Positions 24,090 through 28,176 of a DNA stretch of 64,000 nt are shown piece by piece. How positions within the stretch are numbered: the stretch's first letter is position 1; each line of letters begins with the position of its first letter. This DNA is from Paracoccus kondratievae (GTDB lineage: Bacteria > Pseudomonadota > Alphaproteobacteria > Rhodobacterales > Rhodobacteraceae), in contig NZ_CP045074.1 in the NCBI RefSeq assembly GCF_009301415.1, positions 186,001-250,000 of the forward strand, given 5' to 3'. The position numbers and the translations under genes are program-made. The notes below the pieces were generated by a model. The model searched no databases, had not been told where the DNA came from, and saw nothing but the letters and a program-made list of their open reading frames with translations.

Positions 24090-25328
24090 ATGCCCGCCAA
24101 CGCCCTGCCGCAGGACGACACCGACCAATCCCCGTGGCTAAAGGACCCGCGCCATCGCGACTGGCTGCTGGCCGATGCGCGGCGGCAGTTTCAGTTCTTT
24201 GACGCCAGCGTGAACCCCAAAGGCGGGTTCTTTACCCTTGATCTTGACGGCCGCCCCCTGCCCGACCGGCTGCAAGAGCTGCATACGACAACAAGGCTGA
24301 TCCACTCTTACGCATTGGGGATGCGGCTGGGCCAACCCGGCGCAGACAAGATCGTCGATCAGGGCATGCGCTATCTGTGGTCCCATCACCGCGACCCCGT
24401 CCATGGCGGCTATGTCTGGGGGGTCAAGGACGATGCCGTCGCCGACGGGCGCAAGCTGGCCTATGGACATGTCTTTGTGCTGCTTGCTGCCTCAAGCGCG
24501 CTGGAGGTCGGTCATCCCGATGCGAGAAGGCTGTATGAGGACGTCAGCGAGGTACTTGAGCAGCACTTCTGGGAAGAGGACCCCGGCCTGTTCTGCGACG
24601 AATGGAACCGCGACTGGACGCCGTTTTCCAGCTATCGCGGCATGAACGCCAATATGCACGGGGTCGAGGCGCTGCTGGCCGCCCATGAGGCCACAAATGA
24701 TGCACAGCCCCTTGCCCGCGCCGGCCGCATCCTTGAGATGTTCACCCAGCGGATGGCCGCGACGCATGGCTGGCGCATCCCCGAACACTACACCGCATCA
24801 TGGCTGGTCGATCCCGATTATGCGGGCGACCCGATGTTTCGCCCTTCAGGCACGACCCCTGGCCATTCCTGCGAATTCGGGCGGCTGTTGCTGCAATGGT
24901 GGGATCTTTCGGGCCGGCCTCAGGGTGACGCGCCTGAACGCGCCCGCCGCCTGATCGCCCGCGCGCTGTCCGATGCCTGGGATAAGGCGCGGGGCGGTAT
25001 GGTCTATACGCTGGACCTTGACGGGAAGGTGGCGATTGACGCGCGCTACTGGTGGCCGGTGACCGAGGCGATCGGGGCGCTTTCCATGCTGATCAAGCTG
25101 GACCCGCGCCCCGAAGATGAGCTTTGGTATCGCCGCCTGTGGCGCTTTGCCGATGAAAAGCTGATCGACCACCGCCGCGGCGGCTGGTTCCCCGAGCTTG
25201 ATGGAAACGACCGTCCGGCAATGACCCAGTTCAAGGGTAAGCCCGACATCTATCACTCCGTGCAAGCAGCCCTGTTTCCGCTGACGCCGGGCCTGTCCCG
25301 TCACATGCACGAACTTGGGGCGCTATAA
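24090..25328 (+). CDS. AGE-family (N-acylglucosamine 2-epimerase-like) sugar isomerase
   Basis: A 412-residue protein of the AGE superfamily, an (alpha/alpha)6-barrel that epimerises or isomerises aldoses and ketoses. Visible blocks are Thr-Arg-Leu-Ile-His-Ser-Tyr-Ala (about residue 70), Gly-Gly-Tyr-Val-Trp-Gly, Asn-Ala-Asn-Met-His-Gly-Val-Glu-Ala-Leu (about 187-196), Pro-Gly-His-Ser-Cys-Glu-Phe-Gly-Arg-Leu (about 256-265) and Tyr-Trp-Trp-Pro-Val-Thr-Glu. The conserved histidines expected for the general acid/base are in these blocks. Two ATGs are possible; the one at 24090 has AAGGA upstream, the one at 24075 does not. With the upstream transporter, mannose-to-fructose isomerisation is a plausible role. 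Confidence 0.88.
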   Translation: MPANALPQDDTDQSPWLKDPRHRDWLLADARRQFQFFDASVNPKGGFFTLDLDGRPLPDRLQELHTTTRLIHSYALGMRLGQPGADKIVDQGMRYLWSHHRDPVHGGYVWGVKDDAVADGRKLAYGHVFVLLAASSALEVGHPDARRLYEDVSEVLEQHFWEEDPGLFCDEWNRDWTPFSSYRGMNANMHGVEALLAAHEATNDAQPLARAGRILEMFTQRMAATHGWRIPEHYTASWLVDPDYAGDPMFRPSGTTPGHSCEFGRLLLQWWDLSGRPQGDAPERARRLIARALSDAWDKARGGMVYTLDLDGKVAIDARYWWPVTEAIGALSMLIKLDPRPEDELWYRRLWRFADEKLIDHRRGGWFPELDGNDRPAMTQFKGKPDIYHSVQAALFPLTPGLSRHMHELGAL

Positions 25329-25336
25329 CTGCAGGG

Positions 25337-25374
25337 GCTGGGGCTAAGTTCTGTTTGTCGCGCTAAGCCCCAGC
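25337..25374. terminator. Inverted repeat between convergent genes
   Basis: GCTGGGGCT (25337-25345) and AGCCCCAGC (25366-25374) form a 9-bp stem with a 20-base loop. It overlaps the last codons of the response regulator, lies between two converging genes and lacks a T tract, so the terminator role is uncertain. Confidence 0.35.
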
Positions 25375-25982
25375 GAAATAGCGATCCGGGCGGCATCGGC
25401 GCGGTTGTTGATCCCAAGCTTGCGGTACAGCTCTTTGATGTAATGGCTGACCGTGTGTTCGGAAATCTCAAGCCGCGCGGCGATGGCTCCGGTTCGCGCG
25501 CCCTGCCCCAAAAGCGACAGCACCTGCTCTTCGCGCCGTGACAGGTGAACGTCCAGAGGTTCACCCAGCGGCACCATGCCTTCGCGCAGGCGATGGGCAA
25601 AGGCCAGCGTATTCTCGATCTTGAGATGCAGCAGATCCAGATCGACCGGCTTGGTCAGGTAATCGACCGCCCCGGCACGCAGCCCCTCCAGATGAGGTTC
25701 GCGGTCCGACAGTGCGGTCAGAAAGATGAAAGCCGTCGTTTCGGCCAGTCTGTCACCGTCGCGCAGGTCGTTCAAAAGCTCAAACCCGCTGCGCCCGGGC
25801 AGCATCACATCGCATAGGACAATGTCGGGACGGTACTCGGCCAGAATCGCCTCGGCCTCGTCGCTGTTCGTCGCTGTCAGGACGTTATGCCCTTTGGACG
25901 ACAGCTCTTCTTGCAATTCCTCAAGGAGGAACTCTTCATCCTCGACACAAAGAATGGTCGCTGGTATGCGACTCCGCCCCAT
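25344..25982 (-). CDS. LuxR/NarL-type response regulator
   Basis: A 212-residue two-domain regulator. The receiver domain has the acidic pair in Cys-Val-Glu-Asp-Glu (residues 12-16), phosphoacceptor Asp58 in Leu-Cys-Asp-Val-Met-Leu-Pro-Gly and Lys111 in Leu-Thr-Lys-Pro. The C-terminal LuxR-type helix-turn-helix (about 148-205) contains Leu-Ser-Arg-Arg-Glu-Glu-Gln-Val-Leu and Ile-Ser-Glu-His-Thr-Val-Ser-His-Tyr-Ile-Lys. The start at 25982 (another ATG is at 26012) lies inside the kinase gene, a 47-base overlap in a different frame, so the two are translated together. A Gly-rich shoulder of the kinase supplies the ribosome-binding site. Confidence 0.9.
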   Translation of the reverse strand: MGRSRIPATILCVEDEEFLLEELQEELSSKGHNVLTATNSDEAEAILAEYRPDIVLCDVMLPGRSGFELLNDLRDGDRLAETTAFIFLTALSDREPHLEGLRAGAVDYLTKPVDLDLLHLKIENTLAFAHRLREGMVPLGEPLDVHLSRREEQVLSLLGQGARTGAIAARLEISEHTVSHYIKELYRKLGINNRADAARIAISLGLSATNRT

Positions 25983-27363
25983 CCGCCTGACCCCCCGCAG
26001 CAGGCACGGCAATGATGAACTCGGACCCCTCGCCCACCTGCGAAGTAAAGGTTACTTCGCCACCGTGTAGCGAGACTATATCACGCACAAGACTAAGGCC
26101 AACCCCGACTCCGGGCAGGCGATGCACATTTGGCGCACGGTAAAACTTGTCGAACACGACCGCCTGCGCCTCGTGCGGGATACCGACGCCGCTGTCTTTC
26201 ACCCGGCACAGAACGCGGCCGTTCCTGCACGATGTCTCAAGCCGGACCGGAGCGGGGGCTTCAGAGTATTTGATCGCGTTTGACAGCAGGTTCAGCACCG
26301 CTTGTTCAAGCAGCACCGGGTCGGCGTCAATCAGCAGCGCCGTTTCGGCCAGCGATACCTCAATCCGGCGCGCAGGGTTCGCCTGCCGGATCTGATCGGC
26401 AGCAACTGCGGCGATTTCATTGAAATCTATCAGGCGGCGGGACAGCGAGATGTCCTTGCCCTCGACACTGGCCGAGGCAAGAAAGCTGCTCAGCAACCGC
26501 TCAAGCCGCTCGGCTGCGTCAAGGATACGGCTGAACTTGCGCCGCAGCGCATCCGAAAGCGGCGCCGAATCGTCACGCAACTGGCGCTGCGCGATCATGT
26601 GAATGATCGACACCGGGGTGCGGAACTGGTGCGAGACGGTGACGATAAAGCTGCGATAGACGTCCTTGGCGCGGCGCTCGACCTCCAGCGCCTCTTGCAG
26701 CTCGAAGGTGCGGGCAATGACGGTTTTTTCCAGCTCTGCGCGATGGGCCTGCAATTCCTGTTGCGCACGTATTGATCGCCGCATGTTGCGCCACAACAGG
26801 CCGGCCATGACCACGCCCGAAACAAAGGTGCCAAGCGCAGCGAAGCTTAGCAGTTGAAACATACGCTGCAGGGATTCCCGGCGGGCCTGACGCTCGATCC
26901 GCTCTTTCAGGACCAGGGCATTGGTGATGTCGCGCAGGATCGACGACAGCGCGGAGAAACGCGGAATCAGTGTCCCGATCTCCGCAAGGTCAAAGTCGCT
27001 GGCCGAGATGACCGCGTCGATGTCGTCCAGCATCGCCTTGACCTCGGTCACCTGCGGGCCCGCGCCGATGGAACGGAAATATTCGAACTGCGGCCTGTCG
27101 GTCATCAGCGCGATGCGGCTGTAGAGAATGTCAAACCGCAGCATCACCTCGTCGTAGTCGGCTTTCAGCCCATAGCGATAGAGGGTGACCAACATGTTCT
27201 GGGCCTCGCGGTCCGCCTGAGTCGCGACCCACATGTTGCCTTCGGTGATCTCGCTGCGGAATGCGCGGTCGATATTGACGATCTGCGTCAGAGAATAGAT
27301 GAACAGCACCACGAAGCTTGCAATGGTCACCAGCGCGAAATGGGAACCGCGCAGGCGCATCAC
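25936..27363 (-). CDS. Membrane sensor histidine kinase
   Basis: A 475-residue kinase with two membrane helices (about residues 8-30 and 170-192). They enclose a ~135-residue periplasmic domain that looks all-helical, resembling a four-helix-bundle sensor. A coiled coil follows (about 197-235), then the HisKA box with His245 in Val-Ser-His-Gln-Phe-Arg-Thr-Pro. The HATPase domain has N box Asn-Leu-Leu-Ser-Asn-Ala-Ile-Lys (about 358), G1 Asp-Ser-Gly-Val-Gly-Ile-Pro (about 390) and G2 Gly-Val-Gly-Val-Gly-Leu-Ser. It overlaps the exported protein upstream by 4 bases and the regulator downstream by 47. Confidence 0.9.
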   Translation of the reverse strand: MMRLRGSHFALVTIASFVVLFIYSLTQIVNIDRAFRSEITEGNMWVATQADREAQNMLVTLYRYGLKADYDEVMLRFDILYSRIALMTDRPQFEYFRSIGAGPQVTEVKAMLDDIDAVISASDFDLAEIGTLIPRFSALSSILRDITNALVLKERIERQARRESLQRMFQLLSFAALGTFVSGVVMAGLLWRNMRRSIRAQQELQAHRAELEKTVIARTFELQEALEVERRAKDVYRSFIVTVSHQFRTPVSIIHMIAQRQLRDDSAPLSDALRRKFSRILDAAERLERLLSSFLASASVEGKDISLSRRLIDFNEIAAVAADQIRQANPARRIEVSLAETALLIDADPVLLEQAVLNLLSNAIKYSEAPAPVRLETSCRNGRVLCRVKDSGVGIPHEAQAVVFDKFYRAPNVHRLPGVGVGLSLVRDIVSLHGGEVTFTSQVGEGSEFIIAVPAAGGQADGAESHTSDHSLCRG

Positions 27364-27878
27364 AGCACGATGATCTCGGACAGTTGCCAGATCCAGCGTT
27401 CGTCAACGACGGCGTTTTGCAGCTCGAGGTACTGGTCGCGGGGATAGATCAGCCACAACGGGCCCTTGTCGCGCACCCGCATCAGCTTGCCATTCATCTC
27501 GCGCGCGATGATGAGGTTGTAATCCCAGGCGTCGCTGGCAGGAACCACAATGCCAAAATCGTTCAGCGCCTTCATCAGCAGGTTGCGGCTGATCAGGTCC
27601 GAACGGGTCATGCCGCCCTGGGTCAGCACATCCTTTAACCGGGGACCCCGAAAGGTCTGGACGCCGTCTGTCCAGCGCGTTCGGGTCGCAATCTCGTGCC
27701 AGGCCAGATCGGCAATATCCTGTTCGGAAAGCTCTCGCACCTTGCCGGCAGGTTCGGTGATGGTCAGCATCGGCCGGTTTTCGGATGCGCGCAGCGGCGA
27801 TCCGGGCAAAAGAGCTGCCGCAGCACCGGAAAGAATAACGGATCTTCTGCTGGGACGCGGCGCGGGCGGGTGATGCAT
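27360..27878 (-). CDS. Exported molybdopterin-binding-fold-like protein linked to a two-component system
   Basis: A 172-residue protein with a twin-arginine-like signal (Ser-Arg-Arg-Ser-Val-Ile-Leu-Ser-Gly-Ala-Ala-Ala-Ala, about residues 8-20). The remainder resembles the small oxidoreductase molybdopterin-binding domain seen in sulfite-oxidase-like proteins: Thr-Phe-Arg-Gly-Pro-Arg-Leu-Lys-Asp-Val-Leu, then Ala-Leu-Asn-Asp-Phe-Gly-Ile-Val-Val-Pro, then Pro-Leu-Trp-Leu-Ile-Tyr-Pro-Arg-Asp. No cysteine that could ligate molybdenum is present, so it may bind a ligand rather than catalyse. The start is the ATG after GGAG. A 4-base ATGA-type overlap with the kinase indicates one operon, and it could present a periplasmic signal to the kinase. 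That role is inference. Confidence 0.75.
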   Translation of the reverse strand: MHHPPAPRPSRRSVILSGAAAALLPGSPLRASENRPMLTITEPAGKVRELSEQDIADLAWHEIATRTRWTDGVQTFRGPRLKDVLTQGGMTRSDLISRNLLMKALNDFGIVVPASDAWDYNLIIAREMNGKLMRVRDKGPLWLIYPRDQYLELQNAVVDERWIWQLSEIIVL

Positions 27879-28176
27879 TCGAGCCATCTCCGAAGCCAGG
27901 AACATAACAGATGAAGATATGGCATGCGCGGGTCGGGGTACAACCCACGCATGCCATTTCATCACATTCGGCACCAAAGGCCGACACTCATTACGGCAAT
28001 GACTATCTAAAATAGCGTCCCGCCGGTTTGCTCGTGTAAATGACACGACCTGAGCAGGCAGGATCATCTCTGCCAGTTGTTCGCGCATCTCGCTATTCCC
28101 CAAAATAGGGGGGTGCGCGTTCGCAATCGGCGTGATTCCGCCACTGAGGCAGCAAACAGGGGCAGGCTCGCACCGC
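27879..28176. other. Intergenic region upstream of the three-gene signalling unit
   Basis: About 300 bases between the flavoprotein gene end and the signalling operon, which is transcribed leftwards. It should hold the operon promoter. I see a CCCC-AAAATA-GGGG-type inverted repeat around 28095-28110 but no clear promoter hexamers and no gene. Confidence 0.4.

Follow-up and report, generated by a model that had tools for sequence, protein, structure and literature searches.

On the minus strand of the window, by which we mean the whole stretch of 64,000 nucleotides from Paracoccus kondratievae that was analysed, three overlapping genes run from 27878 to 25344 and encode in turn an exported PruR-type protein, a sensor kinase and a response regulator (Table 1). 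The window lies on a contig of 459,592 bases, one of three that make up a genome of 4.23 Mb, and the best plasmid matches of the window PruR are Paracoccus megaplasmids. A preliminary description of this DNA gave the overlap between the kinase and regulator genes as 47 bases, which is correct (25936-25982), and the same overlap is annotated in P. methylovorus, P. denitrificans PD1222 and P. versutus. The 4-base overlap that it gave for the PruR and kinase genes holds if the kinase starts with the GTG at 27363 and shrinks to 1 base if it starts with the ATG at 27360; both starts are annotated among related records.

Table 1 Features of the PruR, kinase and regulator locus (positions in the window)
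Feature	Position	Strand	Description
PruR-type (putative pterin-binding) protein gene	27360..27878	-	172 aa, twin-arginine leader, no cysteine; assigned by sequence and predicted-fold matches
DTB-type sensor histidine kinase gene (predicted)	25936..27363	-	475 aa; helical periplasmic domain with W45-X7-E53, HisKA, HATPase_c; no receiver domain
Response regulator gene	25344..25982	-	212 aa; receiver (Response_reg) and GerE/LuxR-type DNA-binding domain
Candidate operator, window copy of ATTCCCC-N6-GGGGAAT	28095..28114	.	2 mismatches, one arm degenerate; 217-236 bases 5' of the PruR start codon
Dyad or leader hairpin upstream of pruR	27912..27964	-	22-nt arms, 86% complementary; conserved

Downstream of the triad, a convergent N-acylglucosamine 2-epimerase gene ends at 25328, and upstream, on the same strand and 298 bases off, lies a gene for a folate-domain FAD oxidoreductase; the neighbours on both sides thus fit the earlier statement that no target gene adjoins the triad. 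Between 28177 and 33101, the FAD oxidoreductase gene (DAO, GCV_T) and a divergent cupin-HTH regulator separate the triad from a gene for a peptidoglycan-binding protein. The gene order is the same in P. methylovorus, and in P. denitrificans, P. pantotrophus and P. versutus the peptidoglycan-binding gene directly adjoins the triad. On plasmid 1 of P. denitrificans PD1222 (L048), where its genes are PDEN_RS23605 to PDEN_RS23595, the triad also adjoins yjdM, which is followed by the methylamine-utilisation (mau) cluster.

Identity of the exported protein

Sequence and predicted fold agree in identifying the exported protein as PruR. Against four solved PruR-type proteins, phmmer gave E values from 3.8e-20 to 5.9e-15, and when the AlphaFold2 model (mean pLDDT 88.2) was searched with Foldseek, the same PruR crystals ranked first (E 2.3e-13 to 8.7e-13, TM-score normalised by target 0.82-0.87), with sulfite oxidases coming after them from E 1.9e-7. 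For the exported protein, the structure prediction proposed in the preliminary description returned a match to PruR crystals, which have a truncated SUOX fold.

The sulfite-oxidase-like, pterin-binding look without a cysteine ligand that had been noted in this protein is borne out by the homology to PruR and by the composition of the protein, as its 172 residues include no cysteine anywhere and hence not the molybdenum-ligand cysteine of the SUOX family. It is very improbable that the protein is an ordinary small molybdoenzyme of the sulfite-oxidase or MsrP type that neighbours a two-component system by chance, the outcome which the preliminary description had named as fatal to its own reading. 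Pfam PF00174 does match, narrowly over its cut-off (24.5 vs 24 bits), and most of the plasmid records listed call the relative a molybdopterin-dependent oxidoreductase, but the highest-ranked molybdoenzyme among the fold matches trails the PruR proteins by five orders of magnitude (8.7e-13 vs 1.9e-7), and of the 94 de-duplicated loci with a readable partner, 93 have a kinase gene in that place. This explanation was rejected on the missing cysteine and on the PruR matches, which are the best ones both by sequence and by fold.

The cleft of Agrobacterium tumefaciens PruR includes Asn102, Tyr104 and Trp160, and of these Tyr104 is said to facilitate pterin binding, with Phe as a conservative replacement in some PruR proteins (available text of the review PMC13259868). 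In the alignment with 7kos, the window PruR has Asn, Phe and Trp at the three positions. Across 98 de-duplicated PruR loci, the position of Trp160 is always Trp (98/98) and that of Asn102 is Asn in 95, while that of Tyr104 is divided between Tyr (84) and Phe (14). Phe is found in 11 of the 16 PruR proteins of window type vs 3 of the 82 others, and its presence in the window PruR means that ligand or affinity may differ.

The sensor kinase

By sequence, the window kinase is a PruR partner of the DTB type. Its W45-X7-E53 fits the WX7E motif, W45 is invariant in two sets of aligned kinases (30/30 and 17/17), and WX7E occurs within the first 110 residues of 78 of 93 partner kinases, where shuffling would give 9.8; in the other 15 the motif was not found in that stretch. 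A profile of the periplasmic part, which was built from PruR-linked kinases and includes the transmembrane helices, matches two GGDEF (DcpA-like) proteins that are partners to other PruR proteins at E 2e-13 each (about 46 bits); one of the two, from Sinorhizobium chiapasense, carries the annotation diguanylate cyclase/phosphodiesterase. At E 1e-3, the profile matched none of five kinases that lack a PruR, though the catalytic domains of these match strongly.

The structural model of the kinase is weak overall (mean pLDDT 76.5, pTM 0.40) and makes the periplasmic region all helical. Its best 50 Foldseek matches listed are all histidine-kinase entries with alignments of 215-250 columns, and the periplasmic fold has no separate match among them. 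The cytoplasmic part of PruR-DTB kinases is described as generally most similar to TorS/BaeS (available text of PMC13259868); for the window kinase, the TorS model of NCBIfam comes fifth (E 1.2e-35), and no BaeS model is among the best 25 listed. The phospho-acceptor motif reads HQFRT, and the partner kinases have HE in 56 and HQ in 33 of 93 cases. The homology to PruR and to the DTB kinases supports the earlier suggestion that a catalytic fold has been reused as a periplasmic ligand sensor for a helical kinase domain.

The regulator and the partners of other PruR proteins

In the regulator, D58 and K111 are invariant among 21 aligned sequences, and its features place it in the NarL/FixJ (LuxR-type) group. 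Fourteen regulators of window type share 47-85% identity with it, and the one from Nitratireductor 43%. Similar regulators (37-41%) also adjoin kinases without PruR in Cupriavidus, Methylobacterium, Microvirga and Indioceanicola, so the regulator family is not confined to PruR.

After removal of six loci that duplicated others, the arrangement downstream of PruR was a hybrid kinase alone in 40 of the 98 loci, a kinase with a receiver-GerE gene in 30, a hybrid with a receiver-GerE gene in 7, a kinase with another receiver gene in 7 and a kinase alone in 8; one locus has a fused frame, one has no recognised kinase and four are ended by contig ends. These frequencies lean towards the kin of the window PruR, as the loci were mostly chosen as best matches to it. 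A receiver gene comes next downstream for 37 of the 45 de-duplicated partner kinases that have no receiver of their own. Partner architecture tracks the PruR tree, with 13 changes vs a mean of 47.0 after shuffling and none of 200 shuffles as low; in this tree the window-type loci are split between a clade of 13 rows, supported at 100/98, and three rows that group apart from it. The regulator is part of the PruR-kinase unit.

The output of PruR kinases varies, since in Rhizobium brockwellii (L177) the genes for PruR and kinase are followed by a third gene annotated as an HD-domain phosphohydrolase, and that kinase may feed c-di-GMP breakdown through a phosphorelay. In P. pantotrophus DSM 2944 (L049), kinase and regulator are annotated as one frame of 671 aa. 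The fusion is probably strain-specific or a sequencing artefact, as the two genes are unfused in two other P. pantotrophus plasmid records and L049 differs from P. versutus by a shorter G run, and it was dropped as an argument for linkage. In a plasmid collection, the window PruR has matches in 627 records (E up to 1e-5), 392 of them typed as conjugative and 263 from Klebsiella, and in one Klebsiella stretch (L176) a hybrid kinase gene comes after that for PruR, with an Rpn-family gene and then traI behind it.

Inverted repeats upstream of pruR

An alignment of upstream DNA from eight Paracoccus loci yielded a palindrome with the consensus CATTCCCC-N6-GGGGAATG, one side of which is degenerate in the window; the preliminary description had not noted it. 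With at most 2 mismatches, ATTCCCC-N6-GGGGAAT occurs upstream of pruR in 15 of the 16 window-type loci vs none of the 82 others, and a control that shuffled two-base blocks gave an expectation of 0.045 of the 16. These are not 16 separate events, since 13 of the loci form one PruR clade, and eight of the 16 were the discovery alignment; with those eight set aside, the palindrome is present in 7 of 9 window-type loci. On the PruR tree it is found in all 13 rows of the main clade and in two of the three rows of the separate group (L051 and L110), being absent upstream of pruR in L109 and also in a seventeenth window-type locus from Nitratireductor (L234).

Exact copies were found in 9 of 125 Paracoccus genomes. 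Eight of these have the copy a short way upstream of a pruR of window type, and the ninth genome is outside the 44 with a PruR match. Four genomes with a window-type triad have no exact copy, namely the window's own (2 mismatches), G306 and G406 (1 each) and G345, in which no copy was found up to 4 mismatches. The CCCC and GGGG arms are 10 bases apart from centre to centre, about one helical turn, a spacing that would suit a dimer of helix-turn-helix domains.

In the window itself, the pattern at 3 mismatches has 1 match vs a mean of 3.89 in shuffled sequence, and as this is fewer than in the shuffles, the case for the palindrome rests on its conservation. The whole genome holds 15 sites with at most 2 mismatches vs 4 for the reversed pattern. 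The list is uninformative for a regulon, since all 15, the pruR site included, fall inside stop-free frames of at least 100 aa. With at most 1 mismatch, a search of nine genomes with the triad gave no site in the window's genome. The remaining eight each have a single pruR site, and two of them share an additional site; in L225 this additional site lies inside a 694-aa frame, which we take to be of the aryl-AMP-ligase type. The palindrome searches of the window's own genome and of the nine triad genomes found no regulon beyond the pruR operon.

We consider it somewhat likely that the regulator tunes its own operon through this palindrome, which is therefore listed as a candidate operator. It is rather unlikely that the palindrome belongs to another regulator while the LuxR-type protein acts elsewhere in the genome: the distance of more than 200 bases from the start codon and the decay of the window copy beside an intact regulator frame would agree with such a division, but the palindrome follows the regulator subfamily, being present in the full main clade and in L051 and L110, though not L109, and absent at the 82 other PruR loci, and its exact copies lie almost always just upstream of a window-type pruR.

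Nearer to the gene, the dyad at 27912-27964 has a predicted folding energy of -37.6 kcal/mol (z -7.45) and is kept in eight Paracoccus loci, where 4 of its 14 pairs have both partners changed in one or more of the 8 sequences. At almost this distance from pruR, L108 has a perfect but unrelated dyad of 12 bases, and L056 a weaker one. A riboswitch was considered and rejected, as the sole Rfam match is far below the gathering score and lies inside the kinase gene.

The twin-arginine leader and the source of the pterin

In the leader of the window PruR, a twin arginine (SRRSVIL) precedes a hydrophobic stretch, which by its motif reads as a secretion signal. A twin-arginine motif precedes PruR in 14 of the 16 window-type loci vs 4 of the 82 others, and in 4 of 32 in a wider set, by an ad hoc motif that misses some cases, such as the twin arginine of L161, scored as lacking. 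The Tat pathway exports folded proteins, so a window-type PruR could bind its pterin inside the cell; the window's own genome encodes TatC.

As for a maker of the pterin, the genome encodes an SDR protein that is over the NF006597 cut-off (370.9 vs 281 bits) and has the motifs TGGARRLG and YSLAK, which fit TGX3RXG and YX3K, the PruA signatures in the available text of the review (PMC13259868). The protein is PruA-like with the qualification that the model it passes is named only 'SDR family oxidoreductase', and that with the 'pteridine reductase' model it reaches 182.9 bits, below the cut-off of 288.

The Phe in place of Tyr and the twin-arginine leader, both concentrated in window-type loci, could mark a subfamily whose relay works as set out below with a ligand that is not tetrahydromonapterin-like, or with a different reading of pterin redox state. 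We regard this as unlikely, because the exchange to Phe is described as conservative and as present in some PruR proteins (available text of PMC13259868), the Asn102 and Trp160 positions are kept and a PruA-type protein is present in the genome.

The leader invites a more speculative idea, to which we give little credence: PruR of the window-type subfamily, now exported by Tat, would fold and load its pterin in the cytoplasm and carry it across the membrane, the kinase would thus read the redox-dependent cytoplasmic pterin pool directly, and the dedicated regulator would feed back on the PruR operon. The route of pterins to the periplasm is called unknown in the available text of the review (PMC13259868), and a Tat-borne pterin, if true, would answer for the window-type group how they get there. 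If the twin-arginine leader means cytoplasmic loading, it also offers a direct handle on how pterin signals exit the cell.

Proposed mechanism

What was observed comprises the order of the genes, their homology and predicted fold, the conservation of residues and of the palindrome, and the joint inheritance of the parts. The simplest reading is a two-component system that responds to a pterin and controls its own operon. That the three proteins form a pterin-responsive relay from PruR through the kinase to the regulator we hold to be probable. In a cleft that goes back to the sulfite-oxidase fold, the exported PruR would bind a small pterin, which is probably reduced and supplied by the PruA-like reductase of the cell, and the complex would dock close to WX7E on the kinase's helical periplasmic domain; this binding and contact are proposed by analogy with the homologues. 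Docking would shift the balance between autokinase and phosphatase activities, and the kinase would hand phosphate to the overlapping LuxR/NarL-type regulator, which would bind ATTCCCC-N6-GGGGAAT upstream of pruR and tune its own operon. For phosphotransfer to the regulator and for DNA binding by it, linkage is the argument.

No output is given for kinase-type PruR systems in the available text of the review (PMC13259868). The relay would link pterin sensing to transcription, in a compact two-component system with a candidate operator and in tractable bacteria such as P. denitrificans.

Comparison with known systems

The primary paper on PruR-DTB systems is reportedly that of Greenwich et al. 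2024. The view of the preliminary description that no system of this form had been described is wrong, since PruR-DTB sensor kinases are already in print: PruR versions with a kinase partner, a periplasmic domain of the DcpA type and WX7E are so named, with Ruegeria pomeroyi as an example in the legend of Figure 5 (available text of PMC13259868). As in these systems, pruR in the window is coupled to a downstream kinase gene whose product has WX7E and a DcpA-type periplasmic domain, and the window PruR has no molybdenum-ligating cysteine. Unlike the two-gene operons in the available text of the review, in which neither 'response regulator' nor 'LuxR' was found (PMC13259868), the window has a LuxR-type regulator gene that overlaps a receiver-less kinase gene, and the twin-arginine leader and the Phe at the Tyr104 position set it apart further. 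Our literature search found no publication on PruR with twin-arginine export, and none on pterin-linked two-component or LuxR systems with a molybdopterin-dependent oxidoreductase or in Paracoccus.

With PruR-DcpA of A. tumefaciens (PDB 7KOS, 7KOU), the window shares the PruR fold, and the likeness of the periplasmic domain of its kinase was seen through the two GGDEF partners of other PruR proteins, not through A. tumefaciens DcpA itself. The A. tumefaciens protein is reported to bind pterin and to interact with DcpA at the periplasmic part of the latter (available text of PMC13259868). The output of that system is c-di-GMP turnover by DcpA, whereas the window has a kinase and a DNA-binding regulator.

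A further likeness is that to MsrPQ with HprSR, in which a sulfite-oxidase-fold protein also stands beside a two-component system. MsrP is a cysteine-ligated molybdoenzyme and HprR is of the OmpR type, whereas the window protein has no cysteine and the window regulator is of the GerE type. The window triad is a variant of a described pterin-signalling system rather than a wholly new one, and what looks new in it is the added LuxR/NarL-type regulator, the twin-arginine leader, the mostly Phe for Tyr replacement and the palindrome.
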